This document shows, one piece after another, positions 13,237-24,163 of a DNA stretch of 64,000 nucleotides. Within the stretch, counting starts at the first letter, position 1. Every line of letters starts with the position of its first letter. Origin of the DNA: Geobacter sp. FeAm09 (lineage in GTDB: Bacteria > Desulfobacterota > Desulfuromonadia > Geobacterales > Pseudopelobacteraceae); NCBI RefSeq assembly GCF_008330225.1, contig NZ_CP042466.1, positions 3,404,001 through 3,468,000 of the forward strand. Direction: 5' to 3'. A program made the position numbers and the translations under genes. The notes beneath the pieces were generated by a model. The model was not told where the DNA came from. It made no database searches and worked only from the letters and a program-made list of their open reading frames with translations.

Positions 13237-16200
13237 ATGGGAATGTCACGAAGAGACTTCCTGCGGGGAGGAGCGCTGGCGGCAGCCGGCGTGGCCCTTA
13301 CCGGCAGGCAGGGCGAGGCGAACGCCGATGCCCCGCAGATGAGGACCAAGGGGCTTAAGAGCTCCACCACCATCTGCCCCTATTGTGCGGTCGGCTGCGG
13401 CCTGATCGTCCACACCAAGGACGGCAAGATCGTCAACATCGAGGGCGACCCCCAGCATCCGATCAACCAGGGCTCGCTCTGCTCCAAGGGAAGCTCGCTC
13501 TTCCAGGTGGCGGTCAACGAAAACCGGTTGCAGAAAGTCATGTACCGGGCACCGGGGTCGGACAAGTTCGAGGAGAAATCCTGGGACTGGGCCATGGACC
13601 GCATCGCCCTGCGCATGAAGGAGACCCGCGACAAGACCTTCAAGGCAAAAGAGGTCAACAAGAAGGACAACAAGGAATACGTGGTGAACCGCACCGAAGG
13701 TATGGCGTTCTTCGGCGGGGCCGGACTGGACAACGAGGAGTGCTACCTCTGGTCCAAGTTCTCCCGCGCCATGGGCGTCGGGATGCTGGAACACCAGGCC
13801 CGACTTTGACACTCCGCTACAGTCGCCGGTCTGGCGGCTTCATTCGGTCGTGGTGCCATGACCAACCATTGGATTGACCTGAAAAACAGCGACGCCATCT
13901 TCATCATCGGCTGCAACCCGGCCGAGAATCACCCGATCTCCTTCAAGTGGATCGAAAAGGCCATGGACGATGGCGGCAAACTGATCGTCGTCGATCCCCG
14001 CTACACCAGGAGCGCCTCCAAGGCGGACATCTACGCCCAGCTCCGTCCGGGGACCGATATCGCCTTCCTGGGGGGCATGATCAACTACGCCCTGCAGAAC
14101 AACATGATCCACGAAGAGTATGTTCGGGAATACACGAACGCCGCCTTCATCATCAACGAGAAGTTCAATTTCCAGGACGGCCTGTTCTGCTCCTTCGACG
14201 ACCAGGAGAAGAGCTACGACCTGAAATCCTGGGCCTACGAGAACGATGCGGCCGGCAACCCCAAGCGGGATCCGTCCATGAAGGATCCGCGCAGCGTTTA
14301 CCAGTTGCTCAAAAAACACTACAGCCGTTACAACGTGGACATGGTCTGCTCCATCACCGGCACCAGCAAAGAGGACTTCCTCAAGGTAGCCAAGACCTTC
14401 TGCGCCACGGGTCGCGCCGACAAGGCCGGTACGATCCTCTACGCCATGGGCATCACCCAATCCACCCACGGCACCCAGAACGTGCGCGCCGTCGCCATGC
14501 TCCAGATGCTGCTGGGCAACATCGGCGTCGCCGGCGGCGGGGTCAACGCCCTGCGCGGGGAGTCCAACGTCCAGGGCTCCACCGACTACGGTCTGCTGTT
14601 CAACAGCCTGACCGGCTACCTCAAATCGCCCGAGTTCGACAACACCGACCTGAAGGCCTACAACGAGAAGTACACCCCCAAGACCAAGGACGCCAAAAGC
14701 GCCAACTGGTGGGGCAACACCCCCAAATACATCACCAGCCTGCTCAAGGCGTGGTACGGCGACAACGCCACGCCGGAGAACGACTTCTGCTACGACTACC
14801 TGCCCAAACGGAGCGGCAACTACTCCTACTCCAAGATCATCGAGCGCATGGGCAAGGGCGAAGTGGAAGGCCTGGTCTGCATGGGCATGAATCCGGCCAT
14901 GGGCGGTCCCGATTCCAACAGCGCCCGGGATGCCCTGGGCAAACTGAAGTGGCTGGTGACGGTGGACCTGTGGCAGACCGAGACCTCCATCTTCTGGAAA
15001 CGCCCCGGCGTCAACCCGAAGGATATCCATACCGAGGTGTTCATGCTGCCGGCCGCCTCGTCCGTGGAGAAGGAGGGCTCCATCTCCAACTCGGGACGCT
15101 GGGCCCAGTGGCGTTACAAGGCGGTGGAACCGGTGGGCGAATCCAAGAGCGACCTGTGGATCATCAACCAGTTCTTCAGCCGCGTACGCGCGCTCTACAC
15201 CAAGGACAAGGGGACATTCCCCGAGCCGCTCACCAAGCTTGCCTGGAACTACGGCGAGGGGCACGAGCCCGACGTCCACCTGGTGGCCAAGGAGATCAAC
15301 GGCTCCTTCACCAAGGACACGACCATCGTGGACAAGGACAAGACCCTGGAGTTCAAGAAGGGAGACCAGGTCCCGATGTTCAAGTACCTGCAGGCCGACG
15401 GCTCCACCACCAGCGGCTGCTGGATCTATTGCGGCTCCTACACCAAGGAGGGGAACCAGATGGCGCGGCGCGACGCGGCCGACCCCACCGGCCTGGGGCT
15501 GTTCCCCAAATGGTCCTGGTGCTGGCCGGTCAACCGCCGCATCATCTACAACCGCGCATCGGTCACACCGGACGGCGCGCCGTTCAACCCCAAGCGGCCG
15601 GTCATCGCCTGGGACGCCACCGAGAAGAAGTGGAAGGGCGATGTGCCGGACGGCCCCTGGCCTCCCATGAAGGATGCAAAAGAGGGCAAGTATCCCTTCA
15701 TCATGCTGGCCGAGGGACATGGCCGGCTGTACGCCCTGGATATGAAGGACGGTCCTTTCCCCGAGCACTATGAACCGATGGAGAGCCCGGCCCGGAATCA
15801 GCTCTCCAAGGTGCAGAACAACCCGCTGGTGAAGGTCCCGGCCAACATCAGCAGCGACCTCGCCAAGTTCCCGCTCATCGGCACCACCTACCGCATGACC
15901 GAGCACTGGCAGACCGGCGGCATGACCAGAAGCCTCCCCTGGCTCGTGGAGCTGGTGCCGGACATGTTCGTGGAGATCAGCGAATCCCTGGCGAAGCAGA
16001 AGGGGATCAAAAAAGGAGACAAGGTTAAGGTGACCACAGAACGCGGCTCCATCGAGGCGGTGGCCCTGGTCACCTCCCGTCTGAAACCTCTCAACGTCAA
16101 CGGCAAGCCGGTGGAACAGGTCGGCATGCCGTGGCACTTCGGCTACTCCGGCCTGGCCAAGGGAGACAGCGCCAATCTGCTGACCCCGACCGTGGGCTGC

Positions 16201-18559: not shown

Positions 18560-19975
18560 ATGAAATCAATCCATGTGTACCATCAGGGCAGGCTTGAACA
18601 GGAACAGGGCGATACCGTCAAGGAGTTTCCGGTCGTGCTCCATGTCAACGGCCGGGAGATAGCCACCCTCATCGCCTCTCCCCACGACCTCCGGTCGCTG
18701 GTGGCCGGCTTTCTCCGCCTGCAGGGGTTCGTGACCTCTGTCGCCGATTTCCACATGCTGGCGGTGTGCGAGGATTTCGGCACCGCCAACGTCCGCATCA
18801 AGGGCGAACTGCCGGAACGGCTCAAACCGGTCCTCACCTCCGGCTGCGGCACCGGCATCACCTTCAATCTCCCCAGCGCCGAAGCGCGCACGGTCCCGGC
18901 CGCATCCGCACGGGTGGCGGCGGATACGATCTTCCGCCTGATGGACGAGCTGAACCGCCGCTCCGAACAGTACCGCTGCCACGGCGGCATCCATTCGGCA
19001 GCGGTGGGCGACGGGCAGGGCATCATCCTCGCCGCCGAGGATATCGGCAGGCACAACACCCTGGACCGCATCGCCGGCGAAGCACTCTTAAAGAACATCG
19101 ACCTGGCCGGCAAGCTGCTGGTCACGTCGGGCCGGATCTCCACCGAGATGGCGGCCAAGGCGGCCCTCCTGGGCATCACCCTCATCGCCTCCCGCACCTC
19201 GCCCACCGACATGGCCATCACCATGTGCGAACAGGCCGGCATCACCCTCATCGGCTACGTGCGCGGCGGCAAGTTCACCGTGTACAGCCATCCCGAGGCC
19301 ATTGCCGTCGAGGCGGGCCGGCACGCCTCCTCCACCGGCAGGACGATCCCGGGCGTCACGGGCGTCATCCTGGCCGGGGGCAAATCCAGCCGCATGCGGA
19401 GCAACAAGGCGCTCCTCCCCTACAAGGGGGGACGCTTCATCGAGGCCATCTACCGGCAGATGTCGGAACTCTTCGACGAGGTCATTCTCGTCACCAACAC
19501 CCCGGACGAATACGCCTTCCTGCCGTGCCGCAAGGTGCCCGACCTGCACCCCGGCATGGGAGCGCTGGCCGGGCTGCACTCGGGCCTGCATCACAGCGAC
19601 ACCCCCCATATCTTTGCCGTGGCCTGCGACATGCCCTATCTGAACAGCGCCCTGATCAAGAGGCTTGCCGCCCTGAGAACCAAGGCCGACGTGATCATCC
19701 CCGAAGGGGAAAAGGGATTGGAACCGCTGCACGCCTTCTACGGCAAACAGTGCCGCAACGCCATGGAAAAGGCGCTCCAATCGGGCAGCAGAAGGATCGT
19801 CTCCTTCTTTCCCGAGGCCAGGGTCAGCGTCTTTTCCCGTGACGAGGTCACGACCTTCGACCCCTCGCTCGACTCCTTCAGGAACATCAATACCCCGGCC
19901 GACTACTTCGAGCTGCGTGACGGCGAGCGGGTAAAGAACCATCCCGAAGCCTCCCTAGCCGCCCACAGCGGCTAG
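18560..19975 (+). CDS. fdhD-mobA: FdhD-MobA fusion: FDH sulfurtransferase and MGD synthase
   Basis: 471 residues with two domains. Residues 1-255 are FdhD, which transfers sulfur from IscS to the Mo/W cofactor before insertion in formate dehydrogenase. The catalytic loop is SGCGTG with Cys96, so the CxxC pair seen in E. coli is reduced to one cysteine. HGGIHSAAV and EDIGRHNTLDRIAGEAL are FdhD signatures. Residues about 266-455 are MobA (GTP:molybdenum cofactor guanylyltransferase) with VILAGGKSSRMRSNKALL and DMPYLNSALI. The fusion links guanylylation and sulfuration of the cofactor for the dehydrogenase encoded just upstream. No strong ribosome binding site precedes the ATG. Confidence 0.92.
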   Translation: MKSIHVYHQGRLEQEQGDTVKEFPVVLHVNGREIATLIASPHDLRSLVAGFLRLQGFVTSVADFHMLAVCEDFGTANVRIKGELPERLKPVLTSGCGTGITFNLPSAEARTVPAASARVAADTIFRLMDELNRRSEQYRCHGGIHSAAVGDGQGIILAAEDIGRHNTLDRIAGEALLKNIDLAGKLLVTSGRISTEMAAKAALLGITLIASRTSPTDMAITMCEQAGITLIGYVRGGKFTVYSHPEAIAVEAGRHASSTGRTIPGVTGVILAGGKSSRMRSNKALLPYKGGRFIEAIYRQMSELFDEVILVTNTPDEYAFLPCRKVPDLHPGMGALAGLHSGLHHSDTPHIFAVACDMPYLNSALIKRLAALRTKADVIIPEGEKGLEPLHAFYGKQCRNAMEKALQSGSRRIVSFFPEARVSVFSRDEVTTFDPSLDSFRNINTPADYFELRDGERVKNHPEASLAAHSG

Positions 19976-19993
19976 GGGGCGTCGCCAAGAGAA

Positions 19994-20022
19994 TTGACTC
20001 GGTTCTCCTGAGCAGGTAATAT
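19994..20022 (+). promoter_or_regulatory. Sigma-70 promoter of the tup operon leader
   Basis: TTGACT (19994-19999), a 17-base spacer and TAATAT (20017-20022), placing the transcript start near 20029, about ten bases before the riboswitch. Confidence 0.75.
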
Positions 20023-20038
20023 AGTTAAGGTATACACA

Positions 20039-20137
20039 TCTCCGAGCCGTTCCGCCTGCCGGGTCAACCCGTGGCGGCCGGTCAATGGGCACTGCGGGAA
20101 ACTGCGGTACCTCCCTTTTGGAAAGGAGACCCACGCG
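20039..20137 (+). ncRNA. Moco/Tuco riboswitch (Moco RNA motif) upstream of tupABC
   Basis: The leader contains the conserved pieces of the molybdenum/tungsten cofactor RNA motif in order: CTCCGAGCC; a helix CCGCC/GGCGG (20052-20056 with 20073-20077) capped by CGGG-TCAA-CCCG; GGTCAATGGGC; a GCGG-GAAA-CTGC GNRA hairpin; and GGTACCTCC...GGAGACCCAC. It sits between a good promoter and an intrinsic terminator and precedes tungstate transporter genes, which are known targets of this class. Ligand choice (molybdenum or tungsten cofactor) cannot be told from sequence. Confidence 0.82.
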
Positions 20138-20162
20138 ACATGCCCAGCCGCATGTTCCAGGG

Positions 20163-20190
20163 GCCCTTTCCGAACGGAAGGGGCTTTTTT
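20163..20190 (+). terminator. Intrinsic terminator after the riboswitch (attenuator)
   Basis: Arms GCCCTTTCCG (20163-20172) and CGGAAGGGGC (20175-20184), followed by six T. It lies 26 bases after the aptamer and 217 bases before tupA, so it is the likely expression platform: cofactor binding would favour termination and shut off tungstate uptake. Confidence 0.82.
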
Positions 20191-20205
20191 ACTTCAGAAA
20201 CGATT

Positions 20206-20370
20206 CTGCGCGGAGACGCGGAGACTCAGAGGACGGCACGGAGAACGGCAAAGGCAATTCTCAGTTATCTGGAATGAACAGGATACAGCAGAAACCCGTT
20301 ACGGGCCGGAGCACAAGGCTTTTAATCATAGTCGTCCTTGAACTGAGATTTTCTCTGTGGCTCTGTGGCA
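20206..20370. repeat. Second copy of the CGGAGAC/CTCTGTGG-type repeat
   Basis: Left part with repeated GCGGAGAC motifs near 20209-20230 and right part CTCTGTGGCTCTGTGGCA (20353-20370), in inverted arrangement like the element at 18400-18526 but more degraded. It separates the riboswitch terminator from tupA. Confidence 0.45.
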
Positions 20371-20406
20371 AACCGTTACCTAAATTACGATTCCAGGAGG
20401 AACACC

Positions 20407-21225
20407 ATGAAGATGTTTTCGAGACTCTGCCTGACCCTGGCCCTGATCGCGGGCTTGTGCAGCGCAGCCAGTGCCGGCGAGCGCCTGCGCATGTCCACCA
20501 CCACCTCCACCGAAAATTCGGGACTGCTCAAGGTGCTCCTGCCCCCTTTTGAAAAGAAGTACAACTGCACGGTTGACGTCATCTCCGTCGGCACCGGCAA
20601 GGCCCTGAAACTGGGGGAGACCGGCGATGTGGATGTGGTGCTGGTGCACGCCCGCGCCCTTGAGGACGCCTTTGTGGCCGCCGGTTTCGGGGTCAACCGC
20701 CGGGACGTCATGTATAACGACTTTATCATCATCGGCCCCGCCAACGATCCGGCCGGGGTCAAGAGCGCCAAAACCGCCGCCGATGCCTTCAAGCACATCG
20801 CCGCCGCCCGGGCCCCCTTCATCTCCCGCGGCGACGAGTCCGGCACCCACCAGAAGGAGAAGGAGATCTGGAAGGCTGCGGGCATGAAACCTGCCGGCAC
20901 ATGGTACGTGGAGTCGGGCCAGGGCATGGGCGAGGTCATCACCATGGCCACCGAGCGGCGGGCCTACACCCTGGCCGACCGGGGCACCTACAACGCCTAC
21001 CGCTCCGGCAAGACCGACCTGAAGACCGTCTTCGAGGGGGAGAAGGGACTTTTCAACCCCTACGGCGTCATCGCCGTCAACCCCAAGCGTTTCCCCCATG
21101 TCAAGAACGCCCTGGCCATGAAGTTCATCGACTACATCACCGGTCCCGAGGGACAGAAGGTCATTGCGACCTTCCGGGTCCACGGGGACCCGGTCTTCTT
21201 CACCTACGGCACGAAGGGGCGCTGA
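20407..21225 (+). CDS. tupA: Tungstate ABC transporter substrate-binding protein
   Basis: 272 residues with a Sec signal peptide (residues 1-23, ending AASA-GE). The oxyanion-binding segment MSTTTSTENSGLLKVLLPPF is the TupA signature (TTTST), as are GETGDVDVVLVHA, ISRGDESGTHQKE and GQGMGEVITMA. It binds tungstate in the periplasm for import by TupBC. The ATG at 20407 follows CAGGAGG. Its position behind a cofactor riboswitch and beside a formate dehydrogenase supports tungstate rather than sulfate or molybdate. Confidence 0.92.
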   Translation: MKMFSRLCLTLALIAGLCSAASAGERLRMSTTTSTENSGLLKVLLPPFEKKYNCTVDVISVGTGKALKLGETGDVDVVLVHARALEDAFVAAGFGVNRRDVMYNDFIIIGPANDPAGVKSAKTAADAFKHIAAARAPFISRGDESGTHQKEKEIWKAAGMKPAGTWYVESGQGMGEVITMATERRAYTLADRGTYNAYRSGKTDLKTVFEGEKGLFNPYGVIAVNPKRFPHVKNALAMKFIDYITGPEGQKVIATFRVHGDPVFFTYGTKGR

Positions 21226-21912
21226 GTGGGCTTCATCGCCGAATCCCTGCATACCTCGGTCGCGCTGATCGCCTCCTTCGACCCGGAGGTCTTTGCGACG
21301 GTTACGACCTCCCTGGCGGTTTCCGGCGGCGCCATCGTCCTGGCGGCGGCGGTCGGGATCCCGGCCGGGGTTGCGGTGGGACTGCACGAGTTTCCCCTGA
21401 AACGGGCCGCCATAACGCTCTTGAATACGCTCATGGCCATGCCGACCGTCGTGGTGGGCCTCCTGCTCTACGGGATACTGAGCCGCCAGGGACCGCTGGG
21501 GGCCATGGGGCTTCTGTTCACGCCGTCGGCCATGGTCATCGGCCAGACCCTCCTGGCGGTGCCCATCGTGGCCAACTATACGGTCAGCGTCATCCAGGGG
21601 GCCGACCCGCGCATCATGCCCACGGCCCTGACCCTGGGGGCCAGCCCGCTCCAGGCGGTGTTCCAGCTGATGCGCCAGGTGCGTTTCGGCATCATCGCCG
21701 CCCTGATCGCCGGCTTCGGGCGGATCATCGCCGAGGTGGGGGTGGCCATGATGCTCGGCGGCAACATCCGCGGCTATACCCGGACCATGACCACGGCCAT
21801 CGCCCTGGAGACGAGCAAGGGAGAGTTCGCCTTCGGCCTGGCCCTGGGCATGATCCTGATGACCGTGGCCCTGGTGATCAACCTGTTTCTCAATACGCTT
21901 CAGCAAAGGTAG
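21226..21912 (+). CDS. tupB: Tungstate ABC transporter permease
   Basis: 228 residues, about five membrane helices. The cytoplasmic EAA loop is LTLGASPLQAVFQLMRQVRF (near 140-160), the contact site for the ATPase. The GTG start directly follows the tupA stop (TGAGTG). It matches the TupB permease family in length and in MAMPTVVVGLLLYGILSRQG. Confidence 0.9.
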   Translation: MGFIAESLHTSVALIASFDPEVFATVTTSLAVSGGAIVLAAAVGIPAGVAVGLHEFPLKRAAITLLNTLMAMPTVVVGLLLYGILSRQGPLGAMGLLFTPSAMVIGQTLLAVPIVANYTVSVIQGADPRIMPTALTLGASPLQAVFQLMRQVRFGIIAALIAGFGRIIAEVGVAMMLGGNIRGYTRTMTTAIALETSKGEFAFGLALGMILMTVALVINLFLNTLQQR

Positions 21913-21915
21913 CCC

Positions 21916-22652
21916 GTGAACAGCATCTACAGCATACATGAGCTTACAATGGTCTTCGGCAGTCGCCGGGTGCTCGACGTGAACCGTCTGGCCATCGGGG
22001 GGAGCCGCCTCCACATCCTGACCGGCGCCAACGGAGCGGGCAAGAGCACCCTCCTCAACGTTCTGGCATTCCTTACCCCCCCACGTCGGGCGAGGTCGTC
22101 TTTGAGGGCACCCCGGTCCCCTGGGGGAGCCCCTCCCTGTTCAGACTGCGGCGCAACGTCACCCTCATGCAGCAGTTTCCCTACCTCTTCGCCGGCAGCG
22201 TCTTTGATAACGTCGCCTACGGCCTGGGGCTACGGGGGATCGGCGCGGCGGAACAGCGGCAGCGGGTTGACGAAGCCTTGGCATTGACCAACCTGACCGG
22301 CTTCGAGCGGCGCAATGCGCTGCACCTTTCCGGCGGGGAGATCCGCCGGGTGGCCATGGCCCGGGCGCTGGCCCTCAAGCCGCAGGTGCTCCTGCTGGAT
22401 GAGCCGCTGGCCAATGTGGACCACGAAACCGCCCGGTTGCTGGAATCCATCATCATCTCCCTGCCCCGGCAAGGGGTATGCACCATCATGACGACCCACG
22501 AACCGAACCATGCGGACCGGCTCGGCGGCAGGACCATTCACCTGGTTGCCGGAGGTATCGAGCAGCAGGCGGAGATCATGGCGGAGCGACCCATCCCGGC
22601 CGCCATCGGAGTTCCCGTTCACCAGATCGCGGCGTCGGCCGCGACGTTTTAA
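21916..22652 (+). pseudogene. tupC: Tungstate ABC transporter ATP-binding protein, frameshifted
   Basis: The Walker A part (GANGAGKSTLLNVLAFLTPP) is in one frame. The rest, LMQQFPYLFAGSVFDNVAYG, the signature LSGGEIRRVAMARALAL and Walker B VLLLDEPLANVD, is in another. The frames meet at a run of seven C (22076-22082). One more C would give ...TPPTSGEVVFEGTP and an intact protein of about 245 residues, normal for TupC. All catalytic motifs survive, so an indel in the assembly or slippage in a live gene is more likely than decay. The start is GTG 21916, three bases after tupB. Confidence 0.88.
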
Positions 22653-22683: not shown

Positions 22684-23196
22684 ATGACCGCACATGCCAT
22701 TTCATTCGTCGCAAAATCGGGGACCGGCAAGACCACCCTGCTGGAGAAGGTGATTGCCGAACTCAAGAGCCGGGGCTACCGCATCGGCGTCATCAAGCAT
22801 GATGCCCACCAGTTCGACATCGACCATCCGGGCAAGGACAGCCACCGCCTCACCCAGGCCGGCGCCGACACCATGCTGATCACCTCCCCGGAGAAGCTGG
22901 CCATGATCAAGAAGCACGAGGCGTCGCCCCCCATCGAAGAGTTGATCGCCGCCTACTTCGGCGATGTGGATCTGGTCCTGACCGAAGGTTTCAAGAAGAG
23001 CAGCCTCCCCAAGATCGAGGTCCATCGCCGGGAGCGGAGCGCAACCCTGCTCTGCCGGGGCGAGGAGCATGACCCCACCCTGCTGGCGGTGGCCAGTGAC
23101 GAACCCCTGCAGGTGGACGTGCCGGTGCTGGATCTCAACAACCCGTCCCAGATAGCCGATTTCGTGGCAGAACGGATCATCCATGCAACTGACTGA
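22684..23196 (+). CDS. mobB: Molybdopterin-guanine dinucleotide biosynthesis protein B
   Basis: 170 residues. P-loop near the N-terminus (FVAKSGTGKTTLLEKVI), then GVIKHDAHQFDIDHPGKDSH and the acidic TEGFKKSSLPKIEVHR, the standard MobB pattern. MobB is a GTP-binding accessory to MobA, whose domain lies in the FdhD-MobA fusion upstream. The end overlaps moaA by 14 bases. Ribosome binding site CGGAGG. Confidence 0.92.
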   Translation: MTAHAISFVAKSGTGKTTLLEKVIAELKSRGYRIGVIKHDAHQFDIDHPGKDSHRLTQAGADTMLITSPEKLAMIKKHEASPPIEELIAAYFGDVDLVLTEGFKKSSLPKIEVHRRERSATLLCRGEEHDPTLLAVASDEPLQVDVPVLDLNNPSQIADFVAERIIHATD

Positions 23197-24163
23197 CTCC
23201 CTCGGGAGAACCATAAACTATCTGCGTCTTTCGGTGACCGACCGCTGCAACATGCGTTGTTCCTACTGCATGCCGGCCGAAGGTGTCGCCCGGAAGTGCC
23301 ATGACGACGTCCTGCGCTACGAGGAGTTGCACCTGATCGCCGAAACCGCGGTGGGCCTGGGGATCGAGAAGATCCGCATCACCGGCGGTGAGCCGCTGGT
23401 GCGTGCCGGCATCGTGGAATTCCTCTCCCGCCTCTCGAACATCGACGGCCTGCGGCACCTGGCGCTGACCACCAACGGGCTGCTGCTGGACAAGATGGCC
23501 GCAGATCTGTATGAGGCGGGGGTGCAGCGTCTGAACGTCAGCCTGGACTCTCTGAAGAGCGAGACCTTTGCCGCCATCACGCGGGGCGGTGACCTGGACC
23601 GGGTCCTGGCCGGGCTGGATGCGGCGGAGAAGGCCGGTTTCCCGCCGCCCAAGATCAACATGGTGGTCATGCGCGGGGTGAACGACGGGGAGATCCTGGA
23701 CTTCGCCGAACTGACCCGGAGCCGCGGCAACTCGGTGCGTTTCATCGAATACATGCCGGTGATCAAGGAAGAGGGATGGCAGCGCTACTGCATCTCCGGC
23801 GAGGAGATCCTGGAGCGCATCGCGGCCCGGCATACGCTGGAACATGTGTGCAAGGGTGCCTTTGCGGGTCCGTCGCGGGACTTCCGCATCCAGGGAGCCC
23901 GGGGCACGCTGGGGATCATCACCGCCGTTTCGGGTCACTTCTGCGGTGAGTGCAACCGCATCCGGGTGACCTCCACCGGCCAGGCCAAGGGCTGCCTGTT
24001 CTCCGACGAGACCACCGATTTGGCGCCGCATCTTCGGCCGCCGAACCCCACCGCCCTGGCGGAGGTCATGAAGCGCATCGTCGCGGGCAAGCCGCAGGGG
24101 CACCACATCACCAACAACGGGTATGAGCACCGGAATTTCACGATGGCACAGATTGGAGGATAG
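23183..24163 (+). CDS. moaA: GTP 3',8-cyclase MoaA
   Basis: 326 residues, full length. The N-terminal radical SAM cluster CNMRCSYC and the C-terminal cluster in GHFCGECNRIRVTSTGQAKG are present, together with ITGGEPLVRAGI and LTTNGLLL. It starts molybdopterin synthesis by cyclising GTP to 3',8-cyclo-GTP, with MoaC encoded elsewhere. It overlaps mobB, so it belongs to the tup-mob operon under the riboswitch. The C-terminal double glycine (QIGG), needed for activity in MoaA, is present. Confidence 0.94.
   Translation: MQLTDSLGRTINYLRLSVTDRCNMRCSYCMPAEGVARKCHDDVLRYEELHLIAETAVGLGIEKIRITGGEPLVRAGIVEFLSRLSNIDGLRHLALTTNGLLLDKMAADLYEAGVQRLNVSLDSLKSETFAAITRGGDLDRVLAGLDAAEKAGFPPPKINMVVMRGVNDGEILDFAELTRSRGNSVRFIEYMPVIKEEGWQRYCISGEEILERIAARHTLEHVCKGAFAGPSRDFRIQGARGTLGIITAVSGHFCGECNRIRVTSTGQAKGCLFSDETTDLAPHLRPPNPTALAEVMKRIVAGKPQGHHITNNGYEHRNFTMAQIGG

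Follow-up and report, generated by a model that had tools for sequence, protein, structure and literature searches.

The window analysed here, a 64-kb stretch of DNA, carries a regulatory leader followed by the closely spaced genes tupA-tupB-tupC-mobB-moaA-MOSC, all downstream of the leader and on its strand. Upstream of it are genes for formate dehydrogenase, together with an fdhD-mobA fusion gene. The features are as follows.

18560–19975, + strand: fdhD-mobA fusion gene, outside the switch, its end 18 nt upstream of the -35 box
19994–20022, + strand: sigma-70-type promoter (predicted), -35 TTGACT at 19994–19999, 17-nt spacer, -10 TAATAT at 20017–20022
20028–20144, + strand: P3-less Moco/Tuco aptamer, RF01055, by covariance-model match
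20039–20043, + strand: P1 5′ strand UCUCC, pairing with GGAGA at 20125–20129
20046–20082, + strand: P2 with an off-consensus tetraloop receptor (CCUGCC / CGUGG), from alignment and fold
20087–20112, + strand: P4 with a GAAA tetraloop (20098–20101; GNRA type), from alignment and fold
20120–20132, + strand: GGAAAGGAGACCC, aptamer 3′ strand doubling as putative antiterminator strand, from duplex energy and fold
20137–20156, + strand: accessory hairpin in the aptamer-terminator interval, from the leader fold
20162–20190, + strand: intrinsic terminator (predicted), arms 20162–20171 and 20176–20185, loop GAAC, six T at 20185–20190
20191–20406, + strand: long spacer up to tupA, partly common to congener G052 and much shorter in congeners G049 and G050
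20407–21225, + strand: tupA, tungstate-binding protein with a TTTS motif, closest solved structure 3lr1
21226–21912, + strand: tupB, permease
21916–22652, + strand: tupC, ATPase, frame broken near a C7 run at 22076–22082
22684–23196, + strand: mobB
23183–24163, + strand: moaA
24165–24596, + strand: MOSC-domain gene

The genes of the tupABC-mobB-moaA operon proposed in an earlier note are all there, but a MOSC gene follows them and tupC is frame-shifted. MoaA and MobB score above the curated NCBIfam cut-offs. Tungstate families are the best or second-best match of TupA and TupB, with scores below the curated cut-offs for TupA (239 against 400), TupB (206 against 320) and the N-terminal piece of TupC (43.6 against 400). 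The closest solved structure to TupA, 3lr1 (393 bits), was deposited as a periplasmic tungstate-binding protein, and the nearest named TupA, from a Geobacter sp. metagenome genome, is 78% identical, so that the host may be called Geobacter-like. TupA retains its TTTS motif as well as the selectivity-site arginine, on which, according to the part of the published work considered, discrimination between tungstate and molybdate by the Desulfovibrio protein depends. The tupC gene occupies two frames in the host assembly and a single open frame in G049, G050 and G052; the break at the C7 run may be either a sequencing error or a real mutation.

Upstream, the reading frame of the formate dehydrogenase alpha gene is broken by a single TGA in frame (13807–13809), presumably at the position typically occupied by selenocysteine in formate dehydrogenases. 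A perfect 10-bp inverted repeat without a T run, CCCTAGCCGC/GCGGCTAGGG (19953–19977), spans the fdhD-mobA stop codon; G049 and G050 retain only part of it. Because fdhD-mobA ends so close to the -35 box, read-through from upstream would also cross the attenuator.

The Rfam covariance-model search named in the earlier note returned a match to RF01055 (Moco RNA motif) at 20028–20144 on the + strand, with 54 bits against a gathering score of 36, an E value of 3.7e-10 and coverage of the full model (1–135). This match, the sole one at Rfam gathering thresholds in the window, is far beyond chance. The conserved core CUCCGA, P2, P4 with its GAAA loop, CCUCCC and GGAAAGGAG are all present in the alignment; the P1, P2 and P4 helices and the conserved junction are formed, 32 model pairs being standard pairs, and the outer part of P1 is weak. 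A complete Moco aptamer including P3 is ruled out, since the P3 positions of the model are deleted and the linker between P2 and P4 is 7 nt long. The aptamer had been described as having all main conserved pieces and the riboswitch as complete; the core, P2, P4/GAAA, CCUCCC and the attenuator architecture bear this out, but the form is P3-less and the P2 receptor is off-consensus. The receptor halves read CCUGCC / CGUGG, against CCUAAG / UAUGG in what we take, from the Rfam line and general knowledge, to be the consensus of the 11-nt tetraloop receptor. The A to G change in the 3′ half occurs in 4 of 135 family members examined, and the CGUGG half is common to the host genome, G049 and G050. 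According to the sections of PMC2408646 considered here, a tetraloop receptor in P2 is present in all but two GAAA-loop members of the 2008 set.

The promoter (TTGACT-17-TAATAT) and the terminator of the earlier note are both present. The terminator hairpin has 10 pairs, two of them G-U, and the first of its six T (20185) is also the last paired base. By scan alone neither element stands out clearly from chance: the promoter consensus scan found one site where shuffles gave a mean of 1.2, which is not significant, and the terminator scan gave 10 terminator-like sites against an expectation of 4.5. Across the leaders of four congeneric genomes (host, G049, G050 and G052) TTGACT is identical, and the -10 boxes, at the same spacing, read TAATAT, TAGTAT, TAGTAT and TATTAT. 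Promoter, aptamer and terminator occur in the same order in three of five congeners searched (G049, G050 and G052); the other two, 83% and 88% complete, have no RF01055 match among the matches listed. The weight of the promoter thus rests on conservation, and that of the terminator on conservation together with complementarity to the aptamer. A chance origin of both elements would be compatible with the consensus scans, and conservation in congeners argues against it. Transcription would start near 20029.

Near the end of the long spacer stands CTCTGTGGCTCTGTGGC, and the genome holds one full copy of the spacer. A multicopy repeat at 20196–20385 was considered and rejected, there being one full copy and one partial match (about 40 nt, 83%).

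Family membership, the parts of the sequence, conservation in congeners and complementarity were computed directly, and together with the gene matches, the covariance match and the fold and duplex tests they uphold the proposed Moco/Tuco-class attenuator in front of tupABC-mobB-moaA. From these sequence and folding data we consider it very probable that the leader is a P3-less Moco/Tuco-class riboswitch acting as a transcription-attenuation OFF switch, with the tungsten cofactor as its most likely ligand. In this scheme, in which the transcription of the leader, its ligand, the switch direction and operon co-transcription are what we infer, the leader would be transcribed from the promoter at 19994–20022. 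Without ligand, GGAAAGGAGACCC would form a duplex with 20161–20171 on the terminator's 5′ side, and polymerase would read on into tupABC-mobB-moaA-MOSC. Once the ligand, most likely the tungsten cofactor, is bound, this strand would be held in the aptamer, in P1 and the P5 region, so that the terminator could form and transcription would stop near 20190.

The predicted antiterminator joins GGAAAGG (20120–20126) to CCUUUCC (20165–20171) and CCC (20130–20132) to GGG (20161–20163). The duplex of GGAAAGGAGACCC with the 5′ arm of its own terminator has an energy of -16.2 kcal/mol and is beaten by only 1 of 74 other arms. The unconstrained optimum of the leader fold (-70.8 kcal/mol) contains the antiterminator; the terminator-forced fold (-68.9 kcal/mol) is 1.9 kcal/mol worse and keeps P1, P2 and P4, and leader prefixes alternate between the two folds. 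As far as folding and duplex comparison can tell, antiterminator and terminator are a mutually exclusive and finely balanced pair. The aptamer requires this same antiterminator strand for itself, so that binding of the cofactor should leave the terminator free to form, which would make this an OFF switch.

The same relationship was examined across the host's bacterial family, where at least 139 matches lie above the cut-off and 135 were analysed. Left out were G020:C193 (a near copy of G020:C192), G055:C49, G009:C66 and G011:C13:23399; the core motif searched for is absent from one of the 135 sequences. Terminator-like sites numbered 77, of which 75 were used after removal of two that lay further than 40 nt past the aptamer. 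Native duplexes between aptamer strand and terminator arm average -12.8 kcal/mol, against -10.9 kcal/mol when permuted, and none of 20000 permutations was as good (n=75). For aptamers below 80% identity (n=29) the values are -11.9 and -10.1 kcal/mol (1/20000), and the test is weak below 70% (n=12; 749/20000) and below 65% (n=10; 3111/20000). The motif CCCCTTTTC occurs in the terminators of 30 of 38 AAAGGGG aptamers and 0 of 35 AAAGGAG aptamers, which gives two sub-classes with matching arms. A swap matrix of whole-hairpin duplexes among eight leaders counts against specificity, native pairs being not clearly better than swapped ones, and in the 45 matches examined outside the family the degree of complementarity varies from match to match (-4.1 to -19.0 kcal/mol).

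The host genome contains four RF01055 matches, three of them above the cut-off, including the 54-bit leader. A 64.5-bit match lies about 3.4 kb before an aldehyde:ferredoxin oxidoreductase (aor) gene, with other genes between, and a 50.9-bit match, also P3-less, precedes moeA. A sub-threshold match of 30.9 bits (L036, G000:C1:2291076-2291200) is followed by a terminator-like hairpin and stands before a small HTH gene, which by our own reading resembles ModE and which carries the Pfam label HTH_1. Three MoaA genes score above the cut-off in this genome, alongside one ModA and one TupA match, itself below the cut-off. Going by sequence, the switch would govern one of the three moaA genes and the only TupA candidate. 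The suggestion that one switch governs tungstate uptake and cofactor synthesis together therefore holds in part: tup genes and moaA do stand behind it, but other loci hold two more full moaA genes and a modA, so that the switch does not govern all cofactor synthesis, and its role as sole control of that synthesis is ruled out.

The tungsten cofactor is the probable ligand, a judgement held less firmly than that on the switch as a whole. According to the parts of PMC2408646 considered, 58 of 176 Moco RNAs lack P3 and are tied to tungsten-cofactor organisms, the Moco/Tuco split by P3 rests on correlation, and direct ligand binding could not be shown in that 2008 study because the cofactor is unstable. 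The host leader shares the traits of the P3-less Tuco variant, namely a missing P3 stem and linked tungsten genes (the TupA family match and 3lr1). P3 is, moreover, absent from all 135 family matches examined, with a P2-P4 linker of 7 nt in 129 and 6 nt in six. As the copy before moeA is among those that have lost it, P3 loss alone cannot show tungsten over molybdenum, and the correlation with tungsten cannot be told from descent here. Of 45 phylum matches examined among the matches listed, nine are at least 130 nt long, all from genomes of one other family, and in three of these nine the downstream genes include a TupA-like one, identified by similarity only, which argues against a strict rule linking P3 to tungsten.

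The same attenuator could thus respond to the molybdenum cofactor or to both cofactors, a possibility to be entertained but an unlikely one. It would fit the family-wide loss of P3, the moeA copy included, as well as the downstream presence of mobB and moaA, which serve both metals. Against it stand the tup genes downstream, the tungstate-site residues of TupA, the aor genes behind many family members and the correlation between P3 loss and Tuco in the part of PMC2408646 considered.

The OFF direction here agrees with E. coli moaA, described as an OFF switch in the sections of PMC2408646 considered. An ON switch, in which the ligand-bound aptamer would prevent termination, is very improbable: the antiterminator strand belongs to the conserved 3′ strand of the aptamer, so that aptamer and antiterminator exclude each other, and E. 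coli moaA is OFF. Some riboswitches do act as ON switches, with nothing in this specific to the present leader. Least credible of all is a decayed or idle leader in a strain losing the system, as might be read from the tupC frame break, the off-consensus P2 receptor, the long spacer before tupA and a score of 54 bits against 64.5 for the copy upstream of the aor gene, given that the promoter, the aptamer and the terminator are all intact as well as conserved, that the CGUGG half occurs also in G049 and G050, where tupC is intact, and that a sequencing error could account for a one-base difference within a run of C.

The preferred reading, a P3-less OFF attenuator, has close precedents. The leader resembles RF01055 and the RNAs of Regulski 2008 (PMC2408646, in the parts considered) in its core CUCCGA, P4 with GAAA, CCUCCC and GGAAAGGAG, and in its position before Moco/Tuco genes; that work also describes terminator platforms. 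It differs in the absence of P3 and in the off-consensus P2 receptor, and is a terminator platform, whereas occlusion of the ribosome site was proposed for E. coli moaA. From the P3-less "Tuco" variant of the same sections, which likewise lacks P3 and accompanies tungstate-transport genes, nothing essential differs. Tandem copies are named there for Geobacter metallireducens and Syntrophomonas wolfei, in contrast to the single copy of the host leader. Tandem aptamer copies also occur in relatives (L045, L047, L055, L067 and L105), with divergent ones as well in G046.

In the parts of PMC2700814 considered, Geobacter clusters combine tup genes with moeA, moaCB, mobA-mobB and mosC, and in those of PMC3543383 Pelobacter carbinolicus has aor-linked "molybdenum cofactor" riboswitches. 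These systems share the same kinds of genes in related bacteria and riboswitches before tungstoenzyme genes; an attenuator before tupABC-mobB-moaA is not described in the examined parts of either source. That gene order also lies behind one aptamer in G049, G050, G052 and G015, among the matches listed, and outside the family tup genes with moaA or moeA lie behind one aptamer in 5 of 45 matches examined. As the class, the P3-less variant, the tup/moa neighbourhood and tandem copies are already in print, the host leader is a clear but ordinary addition.

More speculative, and in our view doubtful, is the idea that a single aptamer class has opposite wiring on two sets of genes in the host's family, with suppliers turned OFF and tungstoenzyme users turned ON. 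Supply genes (tup, mob/moa and moe) with a terminator would be turned OFF by the cofactor. Genes for aldehyde:ferredoxin oxidoreductase, and perhaps formate dehydrogenase, would lack a terminator, begin some 30 nt past the aptamer and be turned ON in translation, the folded aptamer taking up CUCC/CCUCC stretches that would otherwise cover the ribosome-binding site.

When leaders are grouped by the first gene to carry a label, a terminator near the aptamer is missing from 51 of the 52 aor/fdh leaders and from 9 of the 83 others, the labels being similarity clusters and the sequences related. A ribosome site and both P1 strands could be assigned, as required, in 45 of the 51. In the 33 aor leaders among these, the ribosome site had a predicted accessibility of 0.39, which rose to 0.76 when P1 was forced; in 264 controls, in which these aptamers were joined to foreign ribosome sites, it rose from 0.35 to 0.46, so that part of the modelled effect appears generic. 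For the fdh leaders the change is small (0.36 to 0.45; n=10). Outside the family, tup or moaA genes follow 9 of 45 matches examined without a terminator, and the split between suppliers and users would therefore be at best a family trait. Opposite wiring is not stated in the examined parts of the literature, and we do not claim that it is absent from print.

With its compact P3-less aptamer, its clear promoter, antiterminator and terminator and its place before tup genes, the host leader is a good test object for the P3-based Moco/Tuco split. The difference between terminator-type supply leaders and terminator-free tungstoenzyme leaders offers a concrete, testable prediction for the family. 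If it is true, the same molecule would lower the supply of the tungsten cofactor and raise its use.
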